Below, piece after piece: positions 6,132 to 32,657 of a stretch of 32,657 nucleotides of DNA. The stretch comes from a virus. Under the pieces are notes generated by a model, which worked only from the letters and a program-made list of their open reading frames with translations, was not told the DNA's origin and searched no databases. How positions within the stretch are numbered: position 1 is the first letter of the stretch; every line of letters begins with the position of its first letter. A program made the translations under genes and the position numbers. The stretch lies in IMG/VR virus record IMGVR_UViG_3300046787_000027, positions 1 to 32,657 of that record. One strand, given 5' to 3'.

Positions 6132-6430
6132 GCTTGTCCCCTTGCTCGGATGGCATCAGCAATGTTTACAGCAGTCATGCTATTCAATCTTTGTGCGTAA
6201 TCAGACGCAATACTTGAACACGCCTCACGCTCAAGAGCTATTGCTGTATCAATTCCTTTCTCAGCCGCTTTCATTGCGGCATCAGTTAATCGCTCACGCT
6301 CATGCTGTGCTACTAGCTTGGCAAATGCTTCTATTTCTTCATCACACATAGCAAACTCCCAAGTTAGATGCTTCCCTGACCAATCAAACCCTGCCTGTAT
6401 AGCCATCTCAATGATTTCATCTCTAGTCAT
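6128..6430 (-). CDS. Hypothetical protein (100 aa)
   Basis: The 100-residue helical, acidic protein begins MTRDEIIEMAIQAGF and has an FAKLVAQHERERLTDAAMKAAEKG...EREACSSIA block. This pattern occurs in short accessory proteins of many phages of Gram-negative bacteria. No catalytic motif is visible. Start at ATG 6430 within the end of the preceding 30-codon gene. Confidence 0.75.
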   Translation of the reverse strand: MTRDEIIEMAIQAGFDWSGKHLTWEFAMCDEEIEAFAKLVAQHERERLTDAAMKAAEKGIDTAIALEREACSSIASDYAQRLNSMTAVNIADAIRARGQA

Positions 6431-6515
6431 AAAAAGACCTTATGAAGTAAACCACCAGCGACCAAAAAGTCGCTAGCGAAATAACAATGATTCGCCAAAC
6501 GGCTTGCTTAGACAT
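6423..6515 (-). CDS. Tiny single-span membrane peptide (30 aa)
   Basis: A 30-codon frame from ATG 6515 to TAG 6423-6425 bridges two genes and overlaps each by 8 nt. Residues about 7-25 (WRIIVISLATFWSLVVYFI) form a clear transmembrane segment with a basic N-terminal flank. The tight overlap on both sides is the main support. Function unknown. Confidence 0.5.
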   Translation of the reverse strand: MSKQAVWRIIVISLATFWSLVVYFIRSFYD

Positions 6516-6765
6516 CTCTCATATCGTATTCAACAGAACGAGAATGGTCTGCCTCATCCAAGATGTGTTTAGAAAGACGCATACAGCCTTCTATCTCAAG
6601 TTCTTTGTATTGTTCAGCAGAGAACAGACCAAGCACACTTACCTTCTCGTAAATAATGTCTTCAATGCTCTCACCATAGATTCCTTCTGAATCTGTTTCA
6701 TATTCCATGACAACAGTAACTACTACAGAGCCTTCACCAACAGTTGTGTCAAATTCGTATTTCAT
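6508..6765 (-). CDS. Hypothetical acidic protein (85 aa)
   Basis: The 85-residue acidic protein opens with a beta-rich stretch (VVVTVVMEYE) and continues with a helical, Glu-rich remainder. No recognised family. It is first after a promoter-like element at 6811-6829 and has a TAAGGAT sequence ahead of its ATG, so it may head a sub-operon running down to 3709. Confidence 0.7.
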   Translation of the reverse strand: MKYEFDTTVGEGSVVVTVVMEYETDSEGIYGESIEDIIYEKVSVLGLFSAEQYKELEIEGCMRLSKHILDEADHSRSVEYDMRDV

Positions 6766-6810
6766 TGCTTAATCCTTAAAAGTACCCTTGCGAACTGCTT
6801 GGGCTGATGC

Positions 6811-6829
6811 AAGTATAGCAAACTAAACA
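6811..6829 (-). promoter_or_regulatory. Leftward promoter element sharing 19 bp with the rightward early promoter
   Basis: On the - strand TGTTTAGTTTGCTATACTT is identical to 9453-9471 of the rightward promoter. It holds an extended -10 (TGCTATACT), but the bases at the -35 position (ACTATA or CTATAT) are poor. It lies in the 90-nt gap upstream of the 85-residue gene and may need an activator or serve as an operator. Confidence 0.6.
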
Positions 6830-6855
6830 CAATATATAGTAGGTACTTTCCCTAA

Positions 6856-7987: not shown

Positions 7988-8757
7988 GCTTTTCTCCTGT
8001 AAGCATTGAGAATTGCTCGTTCTTCAGGTGTTGGAGGACGAGTTACTTTTTCATCCTGCTTAATTTTTAGCAATGCAGGGTCAGGCTCATTTGACGCTGG
8101 AACTGTGAGCCTCACTATGTCAGTAGGATTTTGTTTAGGTGCATTGGTGTTGCGTACCCAATTACGCCATGTAGCAAACCAGTCCAGCTTCACTCCTTTC
8201 TGACCTGCTTGGGCTATCCAGTAGTCCTTGAATTTATCGAATGTTTGAGTAGGGTGAAGTTCTTTCCGCTCTTGAACACAGAAATCCCTCCATTCAACTG
8301 GTAAACAAAAATCTGGAGAGAGGCGTGAGCCTCGCTTGTTTTTATCTATTGGTTTATGGTTATTGGTTATTGGTTTATGGTTAGGGTTATCTTTGGAAAC
8401 CATTTGGGTTTCTTGTGGGATAGCATCTGGGTTTAATTTAGGTCTTCCACCTAGCTTACCAACAGCACGATTACGCTCTGCTTTGGCTTGATAAGCTGAA
8501 ATAGTCTCATCGCATCTTTTGTGAAACCAGCAATCATTAGCAATGTCAAACATGAAGAATTCTTCAAGAACTGTTTGAACAGCATCAGAATGACCAGACA
8601 TTCTTATCCGTCTGGAAACCTCTTGGGTTTTGTTTGGGATAGGTTTTTCACTTGTGTAGTACAAGTCTAGCAATCGCCTAAATGCCAAGTCTTCATAGAT
8701 TGACAAATGAGCCGTGTCGTGAATGTAGTCACTCACATGAAAAGAATAGTAGTGCAT
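7984..8757 (-). CDS. DUF1376 replication initiator-like protein
   Basis: The 257-residue protein. The N-terminal DUF1376 domain (about 1-95) begins MHYYSFHVSDYIHDTAHLS and includes EDLAFRRLLDLYYTSEKP. A disordered linker follows (about 95-145, with KAERNRAVGKLGGRPK and NHKPI repeats). The C-terminal domain (about 145-205) carries the PDFCLP...FKDYWIAQ...DWFATWRNWV pattern of phage initiator/helicase-recruiting tails. By analogy with lambda O, it would bind the origin and recruit the host helicase; no phage helicase is present. Direct repeats inside its linker region (8348-8383) are candidate origin iterons. RBS AGGCGG precedes the ATG. Confidence 0.85.
   Translation of the reverse strand: MHYYSFHVSDYIHDTAHLSIYEDLAFRRLLDLYYTSEKPIPNKTQEVSRRIRMSGHSDAVQTVLEEFFMFDIANDCWFHKRCDETISAYQAKAERNRAVGKLGGRPKLNPDAIPQETQMVSKDNPNHKPITNNHKPIDKNKRGSRLSPDFCLPVEWRDFCVQERKELHPTQTFDKFKDYWIAQAGQKGVKLDWFATWRNWVRNTNAPKQNPTDIVRLTVPASNEPDPALLKIKQDEKVTRPPTPEERAILNAYRRKA
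8348..8383. repeat. Direct repeats inside the initiator gene (candidate origin iterons)
   Basis: ATTGGTTTATGGTTA occurs at 8348-8362 and again at 8369-8383, a spacing of 21 bp (two helical turns). Further GGTTA units lie at 8365 and 8385. The repeats encode NHKPI twice in the flexible linker. Lambda carries its origin iterons in the same place, within gene O. Confidence 0.55.
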
Positions 8758-8860
8758 ATCCGCCTTTTAAACACCCCTGAAAAGAAACTGCGGCAGGAGA
8801 GGGGATAACTCTTTTCGGTTGGGTAATTAGTCCAACCTAGCCGTGTTTCAAAACATTGTA

Positions 8861-9232
8861 TCAAATACTTTGATGGTTAGAAATACCTTTTGATAAATCT
8901 TTGCCAAACAATCGAGTTGCCTGTTGTTTCATCACAGCATACTCAGATTTCGTAAATATGCCTTTAGCGTTTCGCAAGTCAAAAGGATTCAGCTTGCAAC
9001 GAGTTTCCTCATCTGGCAGCACAGGCTTATTTTCAATCAAGTCATCGTGCAATGTGTACTGTGCTACGTTATAGCGTCCAACCTTGACAATCTTTGTGGT
9101 CAGCTTACCTTGGCTACGCAGTTTCTTGGCTGTTGACAGGACTGTAGCTTGTGGCATACCAGTCAGGTTAGCAACTTCATGTGAAGTCAATGGGCCATTT
9201 TGCAGGGCTTTGATTACTCGTTCTTGTGTCAT
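8861..9232 (-). CDS. Winged helix-turn-helix regulator
   Basis: The 123-residue protein from ATG 9232 (overlapping the previous TGA as ATGA). The N-terminal winged helix (about 4-58): ERVIKALQNGPLTSHEVANLTGMPQATVLSTAKKLRSQGKL, followed by a wing strand (TKIVKVGRYNVAQYTL). The C-terminal half is polar and unrecognised, possibly for dimerisation. It probably controls early promoters with the Cro-like protein, or assists origin binding since the initiator gene follows it. Confidence 0.82.
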   Translation of the reverse strand: MTQERVIKALQNGPLTSHEVANLTGMPQATVLSTAKKLRSQGKLTTKIVKVGRYNVAQYTLHDDLIENKPVLPDEETRCKLNPFDLRNAKGIFTKSEYAVMKQQATRLFGKDLSKGISNHQSI

Positions 9233-9381
9233 TTGAACCACTCTGGTTTAAGTTCTTTTAGTTGATAGATGCGTAACTGTGGGATTTTCTGCCAATGATT
9301 GACAGCAGCCCGAGTTATGCCAAGGATTCTAGCAAGCTCACTCTGTGAGCCAGCAAGTGTGATAGCAGTTTGTTTGTCCAT
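9229..9381 (-). CDS. Cro-like repressor (50 aa)
   Basis: The 50-residue DNA-binding protein has a helix-turn-helix at about 12-32 (SQSELARILGITRAAVNHWQK), followed by a short IPQLRIYQLKELKPEW C-terminus as in Cro/YdaS-type proteins. It is the first gene of the leftward operon, next to two divergent promoters, the expected place for a Cro. The -10 at 9388-9393 ends 6 nt before the ATG and no Shine-Dalgarno is present, so the mRNA is probably leaderless. It would repress one or both divergent promoters. No larger CI-like repressor was found. Confidence 0.85.
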   Translation of the reverse strand: MDKQTAITLAGSQSELARILGITRAAVNHWQKIPQLRIYQLKELKPEWFK

Positions 9382-9387
9382 GTTTTG

Positions 9388-9393
9388 AGTATA
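9388..9393 (-). promoter_or_regulatory. Leftward early promoter -10, leaderless start
   Basis: TATACT on the - strand, with GCTATACT shared with the other two promoter elements. The -35 region is weak (GTGTTG at 17-nt spacing). A start 6-7 nt downstream falls on the A of the Cro-like ATG at 9381. Confidence 0.6.
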
Positions 9394-9442
9394 GCTTAGT
9401 TAACAAAATACAACACTAGGGAAAATACTTAGAAAATAATTG

Positions 9443-9470
9443 TTGACCTGTCTGTTTAGTTTGCTATACT
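9443..9470 (+). promoter_or_regulatory. Rightward early promoter
   Basis: TTGACC (9443-9448), a 16-nt spacer and TATACT (9465-9470) with an extended TGC before the -10: a strong sigma70-type promoter. An 8-bp inverted repeat, AATTGTTG at 9438-9445 and CAACAATT at 9483-9490, flanks it and may be operator half-sites. Confidence 0.85.
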
Positions 9471-9478
9471 TCACTCAA

Positions 9479-9500
9479 CCCGCAACAATTCGTAAGCGGG
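9479..9500 (+). promoter_or_regulatory. Leader hairpin upstream of the first rightward gene
   Basis: CCCGC pairs with GCGGG around a 12-nt loop that contains CAACAATT. It is followed directly by CAATTAAGGA and the ATG at 9518. The same hairpin-plus-RBS arrangement recurs at 9687-9722. Confidence 0.5.
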
Positions 9501-9517
9501 CAATTAAGGAAAAGCAA

Positions 9518-9679
9518 ATGACACGCACAGTAATCAAAACATCTACAGGCTTCGTAGTTTATGGCGCATTTACTTCAATGATGCGTTTAGATACAAACGG
9601 CAATGTGGTGTACAGCAACATGAACGCTGACTCCAAAGAATACAAAGCAATGTTCCAAACATTCAAAAAATCAATCTAA
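9518..9679 (+). CDS. First rightward early protein (53 aa)
   Basis: The 53-residue protein begins MTRTVIKTSTGFVVYGAFTSMMRL. I chose the ATG at 9518, preceded by AAGGAAAAG and lying downstream of the promoter; in-frame upstream codons overlap the promoter itself. It appears beta-rich and ends in a basic helix (AMFQTFKKSI). Unknown function. As the first gene after the strongest promoter it should be expressed earliest, a typical place for host-takeover or anti-defence proteins, though that is inference. Confidence 0.78.
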   Translation: MTRTVIKTSTGFVVYGAFTSMMRLDTNGNVVYSNMNADSKEYKAMFQTFKKSI

Positions 9680-9686
9680 ATCAACA

Positions 9687-9702
9687 GGGGGCTTAGTCCC
9701 CC
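9687..9702 (+). promoter_or_regulatory. GC hairpin ahead of the second rightward gene
   Basis: GGGGG and CCCCC form a 5-bp stem around CTTAGT, with no T-run. It is followed by AATTAAGGAGAACCAAATG, nearly identical to the leader of the first gene. Confidence 0.5.
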
Positions 9703-9718
9703 AATTAAGGAGAACCAA

Positions 9719-9799
9719 ATGAAAGAGAAGTTAATTGAATGGACGCTTGCTGTCATCATCTTTGGCGGTATCGGTGTAATGTTGGCATGGAAAGGCTAA
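9719..9799 (+). CDS. Tiny membrane peptide (26 aa)
   Basis: ATG at 9719 has AAGGAG 6 nt upstream, one of the best ribosome sites in the window. The peptide MKEKLIEWTLAVIIFGGIGVMLAWKG has one transmembrane segment (about 8-23) with charged ends. Function unknown; very short early membrane peptides of phages can inhibit host membrane enzymes or block superinfection. Confidence 0.65.
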   Translation: MKEKLIEWTLAVIIFGGIGVMLAWKG

Positions 9800-9801
9800 T
9801 C

Positions 9802-9999
9802 ATGAACGAACCAGCATTTCCAACACCAACGCACAACTTGCAAAACGATGGCATGACCTTGCGTGACTACTTTGCGGCTAAGGCTATGTTAGGTATTTTG
9901 TTTGAGGGCTTAAATGAAGCTGAAACAGCCGAAAATGCTTATGCAATTGCAGACGCAATGCTAAGTGCTAGAAGCACGGAGAAAGCGAGGGAAGCATGA
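9802..9999 (+). CDS. Conserved early phage protein (65 aa)
   Basis: The 65-residue protein from ATG 9802 begins MNEPAFPTPTHN and contains GMTLRDYFAAKAMLGIL, a block found in many short proteins of Gram-negative phages and prophages with unknown role. The C-terminal half is helical and Ala/Glu-rich. The stop overlaps the next ATG (ATGA). Confidence 0.82.
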   Translation: MNEPAFPTPTHNLQNDGMTLRDYFAAKAMLGILFEGLNEAETAENAYAIADAMLSARSTEKAREA

Positions 10000-10154
10000 A
10001 CACAGAACAATTAAGACGCAAGGCTCGTCAACTGTACAACAACAGTTTAGTGCCTCAAGAAGTCAATCAATACAACCAACGTAAATGGGTAAGAGCAGTT
10101 CTTAAACTTGGTGACAAGTGGTTAGTTGCTAAACAGATTGGCAGAATCCAATGA
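9996..10154 (+). CDS. Small basic protein (52 aa)
   Basis: ATG at 9996 overlaps the previous TGA (ATGA) and the stop overlaps the next ATG. The 52 residues are basic (about 10 Arg/Lys) with helical MNTEQLRRKARQLYNN and WVRAVLKLGDKW segments, suggesting nucleic-acid binding. No family recognised. Confidence 0.75.
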   Translation: MNTEQLRRKARQLYNNSLVPQEVNQYNQRKWVRAVLKLGDKWLVAKQIGRIQ

Positions 10155-10321
10155 CCAGAGAAGACGCAATCAAGGACTTATCACATGGCTTGTATTGTGT
10201 TTACTGTACTGAACCTAAGACCTATGGCTCTTGCTGTTCAGAAAACCACTTCGTAGAGTTTGAAGACCTCTACGATGAAGACAAAGAAGCAATGATTAAA
10301 GAATATTTAAAGGAAGAATGA
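10151..10321 (+). CDS. Small acidic Cys-containing protein (56 aa)
   Basis: The 56-residue protein has C16-x2-C19 and C28-C29, a possible zinc-binding knuckle, followed by an acidic helical tail (EFEDLYDEDKEAMIKEYLKEE). Start overlaps the previous stop by 4 nt. No family recognised; the tail could mimic DNA, but that is speculation. Confidence 0.75.
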   Translation: MTREDAIKDLSHGLYCVYCTEPKTYGSCCSENHFVEFEDLYDEDKEAMIKEYLKEE

Positions 10322-10322
10322 A

Positions 10323-10937
10323 ATGGTACATAAGAAGTTAATGAACGCTCGTATGATTTTGCAATCTATGCAGCTAAAGAAGTCAGGACACAATAAGTTT
10401 GCTGGCTACCAATATTTTGAACTGGGCGATTTTCTGCCTCAAATCAATGAGATTTTTCATGGTCATGGATTATGTGGAGTTATCTCATATGACACAGACT
10501 ATGCAAGTCTTACAATCACAGACGTTGACGATGGTACTAATATTGTCATTACATCACCAATGGTAGAAGCCAATTTAAAAGGCGCACACGCTATCCAAAA
10601 CCTTGGTGCAGTAGAGACATACCAGCGCAGGTATCTCTGGATGACAGCAATGGAAATCGTTGAGCATGATGCTCTCGATTCATCTGCGCCATTAAAAGAA
10701 GAAAAAAAATCTCCAGTAATTTCTCCTCGGGGTGGAATTGGTGAAGACTTACCTCAAGAAATTAAAGAGTTCTTGCAAGAGTTTGCAATCTCTATATCAG
10801 AGTTAGTCAAAAATGGCAAGGCAACAGAAGCCTTGTTGATGATTGACGAACAACAGTTGGAGGCAGACCAAAAGGTTTATTTGTCAAACCAACTTGAATC
10901 AAGTGTACGTTCAGCAATTAAGAAAGCGAAAGGTTAA
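10323..10937 (+). CDS. erf: ERF-family single-strand annealing protein
   Basis: The 204-residue protein. The N-terminal ERF domain (about 5-125) shows the KKSGHNKFAGYQYFELGDFLPQINEIF pattern, a central beta region and GAHAIQNLGAVETYQRRYLWMTAMEI, the hallmark ERF block. ERF proteins, as in P22, form rings on single-stranded DNA and anneal complementary strands, circularising the genome and driving RecA-independent recombination. The C-terminal region (130-204) is a separate helical domain, perhaps for partner binding. The SSB-like gene follows by 2 nt, supporting a joint annealing function. Confidence 0.93.
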   Translation: MVHKKLMNARMILQSMQLKKSGHNKFAGYQYFELGDFLPQINEIFHGHGLCGVISYDTDYASLTITDVDDGTNIVITSPMVEANLKGAHAIQNLGAVETYQRRYLWMTAMEIVEHDALDSSAPLKEEKKSPVISPRGGIGEDLPQEIKEFLQEFAISISELVKNGKATEALLMIDEQQLEADQKVYLSNQLESSVRSAIKKAKG

Positions 10938-10939
10938 TA

Positions 10940-11182
10940 ATGGAATACGACAACACTAATCGAGGCTCACTCTTTAAGAATGACCGAAAAGACGATGCTA
11001 AATTTCCTGATTACAAAGGAAGCATTAACGTAGATGGAACAGACTACTGGCTGTCTGCTTGGATTAAGGTTAGCAAAGATGGTGCTAAGTTCATGTCTTT
11101 GTCTGTCAAGAATAAGAACGCAGATGTGCAGCCTAAGAAAAAGGTAAAGCAAGAAGAATTTGATGATGACGCGCCATTTTAA
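10940..11182 (+). CDS. SSB-like / DUF736-type protein
   Basis: The 80-residue protein. Residues about 1-58 (GSLFKND...FPDYKGSINVDGTDYWLSAWIKV...GAKFMSLSVK) match small OB-like DUF736-type folds. The tail EEFDDDAPF resembles the acidic DDDIPF tip by which SSB binds partner proteins. Most likely it binds single-stranded DNA or acts as an SSB mimic alongside ERF. It is shorter than cellular SSB. Confidence 0.78.
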   Translation: MEYDNTNRGSLFKNDRKDDAKFPDYKGSINVDGTDYWLSAWIKVSKDGAKFMSLSVKNKNADVQPKKKVKQEEFDDDAPF

Positions 11183-31127: not shown

Positions 31128-32657
31128 TTAACCCTTAATCTCTACGTTAGATGTAATGCCAGCACCAATCTTCATTGCTTTCAATTGTGCTTCTGCTTCA
31201 AACTCTTGTTGCTTCATAGCAAAGTAAGCCTGTTGTTTCTCACGCTCAAGCATCAACTTAGCAGCCTCTTTCTCACGCATCAATTGCATCTCAAGAGCAG
31301 CCTTCTGTTGTGCCATCTCCATGTCAATCTGTTGTTGCTGCTGCTTCAACTGAATGTCAGCTTGTGCTTTGGCTTGGTTAGCTTGAATCTCAGCCTGAGT
31401 GCGAGCCATGATTGCTTGCACTTCTGGAGGCATTTGCTGTTGCTGTGGAGGAGGATTCGAGAGCATCTGGTCTTGCTCTGGTGTGATTGGCTTATAGAAC
31501 TCACCAGAATCCTTAAAGCCAGCAATCTCAACCATGCGTCCCAAAGTAGCACGATATTGAGCAGGGGAGACATAGGGATTGGCAGGGCCGTACTGAGCAA
31601 TCAACTGTTCTTGTTTAGCCAGAACCATTGACAACATAGCCATCTGCTCTTGGCGGTTACCTGAACCCAAACCTACGTTGATAGCCACATCGTATTGGTT
31701 AGCCCATGTACGAGGGTCAAACTCTACGAATTCGCCACGCATACGAACCATGCGAGCCTTGTCTTGGTATTTGCACAAGAGATGCAAGATGCCTTGGAAC
31801 AAAGACTTAACACCAGTCTCTGCAAAGATTCGAGCCATCAGTTCAATCTTACCTGCGCCAGCTTGTTGCATCGAGGCAACTGCTGCTGCTGTGACATTCT
31901 GCAAGATAGCAGGGTCAAGACCTTGTGAAGCATCAGATACACCAGTACGCTTAGATTGGACTGTATCCAAATACTGAAGCATTGGGAAAGCCTGAGATGC
32001 CACATTCTGCACAACCAGTTGTTGAACAGCATTAGGTGACTTGGCACGAATAACACCACCTGCGGTAGATGTAAGCAAGTCATCAAGATTTACCTGCCCT
32101 TCAACAGCAACCACTCGTGCATTGTTTGTCAGATATAAGTTATCCAACATCTGACGAGTGATAGTAGTCTTAATCAGTTGCAAGTCAGTTGTTCGGTCAG
32201 CAAGTGAGTTACCAAAGAACTTGTGCGGAATTGGGATTGGGCAGATTGAATGGAATGGAACATAGTCCACTTCTTCAACCATTTCCTTACCATTCTCATC
32301 TTGGAGAATCTCGTTTGAAGCGTAGAAAACTTGAGTCAGAGCAGCAATACCTTTGCCATTCATATCAGTTTTGACATAACACTCAAAGACCTCAATCTCT
32401 TGCATTGATGGGTCATCAGTCTGCACTTGGTAAGGTTGCTCACCAGCAGAGTAACGAGCAACACGCTCTGGCGTATAAGCCAAAGCATCATCCATCTGCA
32501 AGCCTTCAATTTGCTTCTTGTTGAAACCCATAGCAACCAAGTCACTACGAGTCAACATCTGACGATGTGCTACGAATGGGCTGTCAGCAATAGTGCGAGC
32601 CTTCTTGCTAATCAAGAACTCCTCTGGAGGAACATTCTCAATCGTTACTTTGCCTGA
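31128..32657 (-). CDS. Portal protein, C-terminal part (begins at the left end)
   Basis: This is the 3' part of the portal gene, open to the window's end; residues continue from the part at 1-730. Seen here are a TDLQLIKTTITRQMLDNLYLTNNAR helix, a crown-like SKRTGVSDASQGLDP region, and a long Gln/Lys/Glu-rich coiled coil near the end (about the last 110 residues, QAEIQANQAKAQADIQLKQQ...), consistent with the barrel helices of P22-type portals. TAA at 31128-31130 lies 2 nt before the next gene. Confidence 0.93.
   Translation of the reverse strand, partial: SGKVTIENVPPEEFLISKKARTIADSPFVAHRQMLTRSDLVAMGFNKKQIEGLQMDDALAYTPERVARYSAGEQPYQVQTDDPSMQEIEVFECYVKTDMNGKGIAALTQVFYASNEILQDENGKEMVEEVDYVPFHSICPIPIPHKFFGNSLADRTTDLQLIKTTITRQMLDNLYLTNNARVVAVEGQVNLDDLLTSTAGGVIRAKSPNAVQQLVVQNVASQAFPMLQYLDTVQSKRTGVSDASQGLDPAILQNVTAAAVASMQQAGAGKIELMARIFAETGVKSLFQGILHLLCKYQDKARMVRMRGEFVEFDPRTWANQYDVAINVGLGSGNRQEQMAMLSMVLAKQEQLIAQYGPANPYVSPAQYRATLGRMVEIAGFKDSGEFYKPITPEQDQMLSNPPPQQQQMPPEVQAIMARTQAEIQANQAKAQADIQLKQQQQQIDMEMAQQKAALEMQLMREKEAAKLMLEREKQQAYFAMKQQEFEAEAQLKAMKIGAGITSNVEIKG
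32531..32657. repeat. Terminal direct repeat, right copy
   Basis: Exact second copy of bases 1-127. It falls in the middle of the portal coding sequence, an unlikely place for a true genome end. Confidence 0.97.

Follow-up and report, generated by a model that had tools for sequence, protein, structure and literature searches.

We found, by comparing related phage sequences, that a 19-bp sequence occurring twice in a phage genome, once on each strand, is the core of a control cassette of approximately 100 bp that stands before two gene blocks in a group of uncultured freshwater phages. The window, meaning the whole stretch of DNA analysed (32,657 nucleotides; IMG/VR virus record IMGVR_UViG_3300046787_000027), has one cassette at each of two predicted early promoters, P_L and P_R (Table 1). 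We consider it probable that the cassette is an early control unit used twice, made up of a Cro operator over the promoter, an activator box upstream, a hairpin leader and an exchangeable first gene. The new point, from sequence comparison, is the box, which is common to unrelated phages and helically phased relative to their predicted start sites.

Table 1. Positions of the cassette elements and of the adjoining genes in the window
Feature	Position	Strand	Remarks
Right 19-mer copy	9453..9471	+	9453-9470 is the dyad TGTTTAG-TTTG-CTATACT over the P_R spacer and -10
Left 19-mer copy	6811..6829	-	6812-6829 is the dyad TGTTTAG-TTTG-CTATACT over the P_L spacer and -10
Third, degenerate copy at P_cro	9388..9405	-	TGTTAACTAAGCTATACT; -10 TATACT 9388-9393, 6 nt from the cro ATG
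P_R	9443..9470	+	-35 TTGACC 9443-9448; -10 TATACT 9465-9470; predicted +1 9477
P_L -10	6812..6817	-	TATACT; extended -10, no -35 listed; predicted +1 6805
Right activator-like box	9417..9431	+	TAGGGAAAATACTTA; centre 9424, at -53 relative to the predicted P_R start and at -43 relative to the cro ATG
Left activator-like box	6840..6854	-	TAGGGAAAGTACCTA; centre 6847, -42 from the predicted P_L start
Right 5'-terminal leader hairpin	9477..9500	+	AACCCGCAACAATTCGTAAGCGGG; Shine-Dalgarno AAGGA 9506-9510
Left 5'-terminal leader hairpin	6785..6805	-	AGCCCAAGCAGTTCGCAAGGG; Shine-Dalgarno AAGGA 6773-6777
First gene behind P_R	9518..9679	+	ATG 9518; 53 aa; KTSTGFVVYGAF family, which other phages have behind P_L
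First gene behind P_L	6508..6765	-	ATG 6765; 85 aa; MKYEFDTT family; no Pfam or PHROG match
cro	9229..9381	-	50 aa; P22_Cro family PF14549

The ends of the window form a 127-bp direct terminal repeat (1-127 = 32531-32657), so the window is probably a closed phage genome of ~32.5 kb. By terminase, the nearest named relatives are MW202481 (64%) and Methylophilales phage Venkman (61.5%); by Cro, they are MW202462 and MW202544 (52%). A search for near relatives of the window among named phages returned only 213 bp at 81%. MW202462.1 and MW202544.1 are each 34,712 bp long with 52 features, give the same matches at different offsets, and may be a single genome that was deposited under two names. In both, cro is not annotated and the opposite strand is annotated instead. 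The Cro of the window matched the PF14549 profile with 39.5 bits (cut-off 30.2) and the P22 Cro structure 1rzs (E 0.005), and its gene adjoins the proposed operator, as in P22-type systems. Neither a CI-type repressor nor an integrase was found among those window proteins scanned. A match to the Rfam int-alpA RNA, below threshold (29.7 bits, gathering cut-off 35.8; E 0.0022), lies at 8774-8847 (-), between the winged-helix gene and the DUF1376 gene.

The 19-mer had been reported in a first-pass annotation as a pair of opposite copies, and both copies are exact. No further copy with up to 3 mismatches is present in the window. Similarity around the two copies reaches a 29-nt inverted repeat (86%). 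A scan of viral_contigs for the exact 19-mer returned 103 stretches, as against 1 for the reversed string. Both orientations were present in 9 of the 103 loci, and box, promoter and leader, judged by eye, at 100; the remaining three (L003, L056 and L081) are one coding sequence and were left out. Conservation in relatives, which the annotation had named as the check to run, is thus far above chance, and we rejected the reading of the 19-mer as a chance repeat (0.02 expected; 103 stretches against 1). We likewise rejected a bacterial promoter common in hosts: in 84,980 bacterial and archaeal genomes the 19-mer was found in one stretch, a Clostridia contig, probably by chance. Near absence from bacterial genomes speaks rather for a virulent phage.

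The shared part is longer than the annotation had noticed. It includes the box, start site, hairpin and Shine-Dalgarno, and a related sequence stands before cro (Table 1). From 5' to 3' the cassette reads: a box, TAGG[GT]-N-C[CT]TA; an A/T-rich part with or without a -35; TGTTTA[G/C]TTTG[C/A]TATACT; six bases; A[G/A]CCC..GGG; a Shine-Dalgarno; and ATG. We avoided selection on the 19-mer itself and so collected relatives by Cro (389 encoding stretches, of which the best 80 were kept) and located the elements by the leader (145 matches; 6 chance coding matches were dropped and 139 kept, 60 left and 79 right). Many loci are close relatives, and independent events are fewer than the counts given here.

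A promoter scan found P_R with TTGACC, a 16-bp spacer, TATACT and TG ahead of the -10 (10/12), and listed no -35/-10 pair at the left copy. The distance from the -10 to the leader is exactly 6 nt in 53 of 55 unique left elements and 66 of 68 unique right elements. It holds too where the -10 is TACAAT, at least 2 bases downstream. This constant distance makes the first A of the leader the probable transcription start on each side. At cro, a -10 lies 5-6 nt before the ATG in all 70 unique regions (55 TATACT; 15 TACAAT, these read by eye). With so short a distance, cro is probably leaderless, in the window and across the group. Leaderless expression is also the case for lambda cI from P_RM.

The position of the box relative to the predicted starts is restricted to two places. 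Left box centres lie at -41 to -45 in 41 of 51 elements and at -52 to -53.5 in 10, with none between. On the right, 46 of 59 elements have the centre at -52 to -54 and 13 have it at -42/-43, again with none between. When the box is at -42, its end occupies the -35 position (TAGTAA, TAGATA, GACAAA and similar); when it is at -53, TTGACC or TTGTTT stands at -35 in 33 of 46 right copies. Class II activator sites sit at these positions, and others one turn further up. From these positions we infer that the box acts in activation and not in repression. The annotation had also suggested that the left copy, with no -35, depends on an activator; this idea survives in a changed form, with an activator-like box at -42 apparently replacing the -35. 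Measured from the cro ATG in 70 unique regions, the box is at -42 to -44 in 63, at -54 in 3 and at -73/-74 in 4. In these last four a degenerate second site is visible near -43. When small HTH genes next to the box were looked for with relaxed criteria, 10 cases were found at 15 to 75 nt from the start codon, partly with wrong starts. Given these mixed distances, we restrict the -42 rule for cro to the group of the window itself. The forms of the box differ in length by 1 bp (N7 or N8), which is odd for a rigid dimer site. In G012, G015 and G002 (L318-L319, L322-L323 and L300-L301) a shorter, more symmetric box, TAGGGTAAACCCTA or TAGGGAAAACCCTA, stands beside the 15-bp form.

The box extends well beyond this group. 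The exact 16-mer TAGGGAAAGTACCTAG was present in at least 120 stretches, as against 4 for its reversal, and a box variant in 87. Among 99 box instances examined, 8 had the cassette leader and 13 a recognised HTH neighbour. We predicted start sites for 60 other, de-duplicated instances. The box was at -41 to -45 in 8, -52 to -56 in 16, -62 to -65 in 27, -72/-73/-83 in 5 and elsewhere in 3, and one had no promoter; 51 of 59 predicted starts thus place it in one of the first three positions. These distances are whole helical turns, as at class I and class II activator sites. With stricter de-duplication (48 sites for the 16-mer, 24 for the variant), the 16-mer gave a Rayleigh R of 0.69 at 10.5 bp (n=35), and the independent variant gave 0.46 (n=14, p 0.05) or, alternatively, 0.68 (n=8, p 0.02). 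The pooled value after 70% de-duplication was 0.61 (n=49, 10.5 bp). The maximum of a jitter null (500) was 0.41, as against 0.68 for the matching 32 sites. Phasing was tested with three periods and three score limits, and the weakest results were not significant.

We compared 17 box-carrying genomes together with Venkman and MW202481, which have no site and no convincing site, respectively. No protein family was common to all 17 box carriers among these 19 genomes; the widest were terminase (13/19) and a DUF1376 primosomal protein (12/19). The lack of a universal family speaks only against a common phage gene as the reader of the box. A host-encoded activator is then the simplest reading and our best guess. 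More tentatively, and with somewhat less than even confidence, we suggest that many unrelated lineages among the uncultured freshwater phages start their early genes through one hitherto unrecognised host activator, from boxes phased at -42, -53, -63 and -73, each lineage adding its own Cro operator on the -10. If so, infection would be tied to whichever host state that activator reports. Among named phages the 16-mer box was found only in MW202462 and MW202544, and the cultured Comamonadaceae phages P26059A/B had no convincing site. A blast search with two box promoters returned nothing informative. Literature queries, made without the box sequence, returned no published description of the box, including in the accessible part of a report on freshwater Comamonadaceae phages (PMC5964084). 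Readings of the motifs as sigma54 or Lrp-like sites fit poorly with what is known of those sites and were rejected.

Within the 19-mer, the dyad TGTnTAG-N4-CTAnACA most likely serves the neighbouring P22-Cro-like protein as its operator. In the group the arms TGTTnAG and CTATAC stay while the centre varies (AAAA, AAAT, TAAA, TTCG, TTTG), in a search that had the N4 spacing preset. The arms shift relative to the start, from -24 to -26, -27 or -29, when the -10 moves. Since the arms are kept and change their distance to the start when the -10 moves, which a promoter does not need, the conservation of the spacer fits an operator. The same dyad was found at both promoters of unrelated phages that have other P22-type Cro proteins. 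In L251, for example, TGTTTAG-GATG-CTATACA precedes a P22-type cro and TGTTTAT-CTGG-CTATACA stands opposite. Of 78 unrelated box regions, 9 had the dyad (at least 10/12), compared to 0.3 in shuffles, and 6 had it on both sides of the box, compared to 0.01. The symmetry is imperfect, as position 18 of the 19-mer is T where A is expected, and the copy at P_cro is a poor dyad. Sequence comparison thus indicates that what lies on the -10 varies with the type of Cro and that the box stays constant.

The annotation had proposed one shared operator or activator site. Both functions can be recognised: the dyad in the 19-mer as a candidate operator and the TAGG box as a likely activator site. They appear as two different sequences and not as one element, since the box is separate and is common to phages with unlike Cro proteins. 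The annotation's alternative regulator, the winged-helix protein, found no support as common regulator and was rejected. None of 20 other records, among them 18 with the box, yielded it, although this is weak evidence given the small domain and a search with no positive control.

The leader is a hairpin at the predicted 5' end of the mRNA with compensatory changes, as expected of a conserved stem-loop. In each of the 29 side-specific variants (27 distinct) both inner pairs are standard, with the register chosen for best pairing. Two 23-nt variants of the 27 were omitted from fixed-length alignments because of their length. In one such alignment (13 sequences), 100% of cells were paired, with 7 double-sided changes, and none of 500 shuffles was as good. 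In another (A1, 12 sequences), 96.4% of cells were paired and the covariation score was matched by 32 of 500 shuffles. In unrelated phages, 5' hairpins were stronger than shuffles (p 4e-6) but did not exceed those of a control window placed 150 nt downstream (p 0.48). Several unrelated box phages (L200, L216, L231, L234, L237, L352 and L353) have closely similar leaders (GCCC..pentaloop..GGGGTCTTTTTAGGAG or alike), and this type of leader may be as widespread as the box. A second hairpin, GGGGG-CTTAGT-CCCCC, lies at 9687-9702 of the window, directly 5' of the Shine-Dalgarno of the next gene in the right operon, and is followed by AATTAAGGAG again.

The genes behind the cassette are exchanged. 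The first genes downstream of 177 distinct cassettes (95 on the left, 82 on the right) fall into 24 families. Eight of these families, with 45 members, occur on both sides; the right first gene of the window resembles the KTSTGYVVNGAF family, also present on both sides. Between families, identity over the last 30 nt before the ATG is 65% on the left and 57% on the right, and over the first 60 nt of the gene it is 33%. By this comparison the cassette stays constant as a joint at which one first gene is replaced by another, and the start codon after the conserved promoter-leader is a concrete swap point of phage early genes. One small first gene, MTDFTFSPSDFNAT..VVANT, moves among unrelated phages and also switches between the left and the right cassette (L200, L187, L017, L075). 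By eye, a possible tiny membrane peptide of ~30 aa starting MSKQAVWRIIVISLATFWSL lies at ~6430-6515 (-), where the first left gene ends. In L140, a compact relative (8645-11182), P_L leads by way of a few small same-strand genes towards those that, in the window, immediately precede terminase. From this layout, P_L may double as a late promoter.

The 19-mer could be only a strong extended -10 sigma70 promoter, its copies kept alike by recombination between phages and between copies. Such a promoter does explain part of the same letters: the 19-mer contains TTTG-C-TATACT, TTTGCTATACT is also present at many P_cro, and gene exchange at the cassette is evident. However, a promoter has no need for identity in the spacer, TGTTTAG stays when the TTTG centre is lost or the -10 moves by 2-5 nt, and in unrelated box regions these arms stand around other centres. 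We regard this reading as unlikely. A still less likely one is that Cro binds the TAGG box, repressing or activating from -42/-53, and that the 19-mer has some other role. The box does stand at -42 to -44 from the cro ATG, and in MW202462/MW202544 it is exact beside the 52%-identity cro where the 19-mer is missing. However, most box instances have no recognised HTH neighbour, and the same box accompanies other kinds of Cro whose mirror repeats differ: L200, with another Cro, has TTCACA..TGTGATATAGTT at the same two places, one on each side of the box (0/200 shuffles; in this comparison the row for L112 is the left element and not a cro region).

The lowest probability goes to antitermination, in which both transcripts would read through terminators by means of the leader hairpin, as an RNA of the nut or put kind, or of the 19-mer, as a Q-type site. 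It would suit two operons that begin with the same RNA, a P_L upstream of a same-strand gene run in L140, and the Q-like antiterminators annotated in Venkman and MW202481. Against it, an Rfam search at the leader gave no family match, no Q-like protein was found among the window proteins scanned, and the hairpin begins at +2/+3 with the Shine-Dalgarno immediately after.

We prefer the repressor-activator cassette. The 18-bp sequence TGTTTAG-N4-CTATAC(A/T) would be the operator, and the phage's own P22-Cro-like repressor the protein most likely to bind it. Cro bound over the spacer and -10 would shut P_L and P_R, and would shut its own leaderless promoter through the weaker copy. The 15-16-bp dyad box TAGG-N7/8-CCTA would bind an activator that contacts RNA polymerase from -42 or -53. 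The transcript would begin at the foot of the 5'-terminal hairpin, which probably protects the 5' end of the mRNA; a U-rich run and a strong Shine-Dalgarno come after it. An isolated repeat would then become a regulatory grammar of abundant uncultured phages, with a repressor site, an activator site, a start site, a protected leader and an exchangeable first gene.

The P22 operator has the form ATTnAAG-N4-CTTnAAT. Like it, the proposed operator has two arms of 7 bp around a centre of 4 bp and lies over early promoters, but the letters of the arms are different. The Cro proteins of N15 and PY54 are close systems too (PMC4488713, PMC4997575). Furthermore, the window differs in its 50-aa protein, in having no recognised CI-type partner and in a cro that is apparently leaderless. 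As in lambda-type early control, two opposite early promoters and the cro promoter would be under common operators. Unlike in lambda, P_L is ~2.6 kb away, behind NinB on the strand of cro and not past a repressor gene, and each promoter has a separate activator-like box.

For the leader, the closest known function, by analogy, would be that of ompA-type 5'-terminal stem-loops, which hinder decay from a hairpin at the 5' end (PMC7509114, in the part accessible). The window hairpin is likewise ~2 nt from the predicted 5' end and ahead of the Shine-Dalgarno. In contrast to the ompA type, leaders of the window group have a recurring 2-bp inner stem, a pentaloop and an A-rich internal loop.

For the box, the nearest parallel is CtrA. 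In phages of alphaproteobacteria, binding sites of this one regulator, a host factor whose binding is known, recur in promoters of unrelated phages (PMC9437464, in the part accessible). The TAGG box likewise recurs as the same site in promoters of unrelated phages. It differs from the CtrA sites described there in being usually single and at a phased distance from the promoter, and its reader is a putative one. If a host protein reads the box, DNA affinity could identify that protein, and a shared dependence of these phages on host state, comparable to that on CtrA, would become testable.
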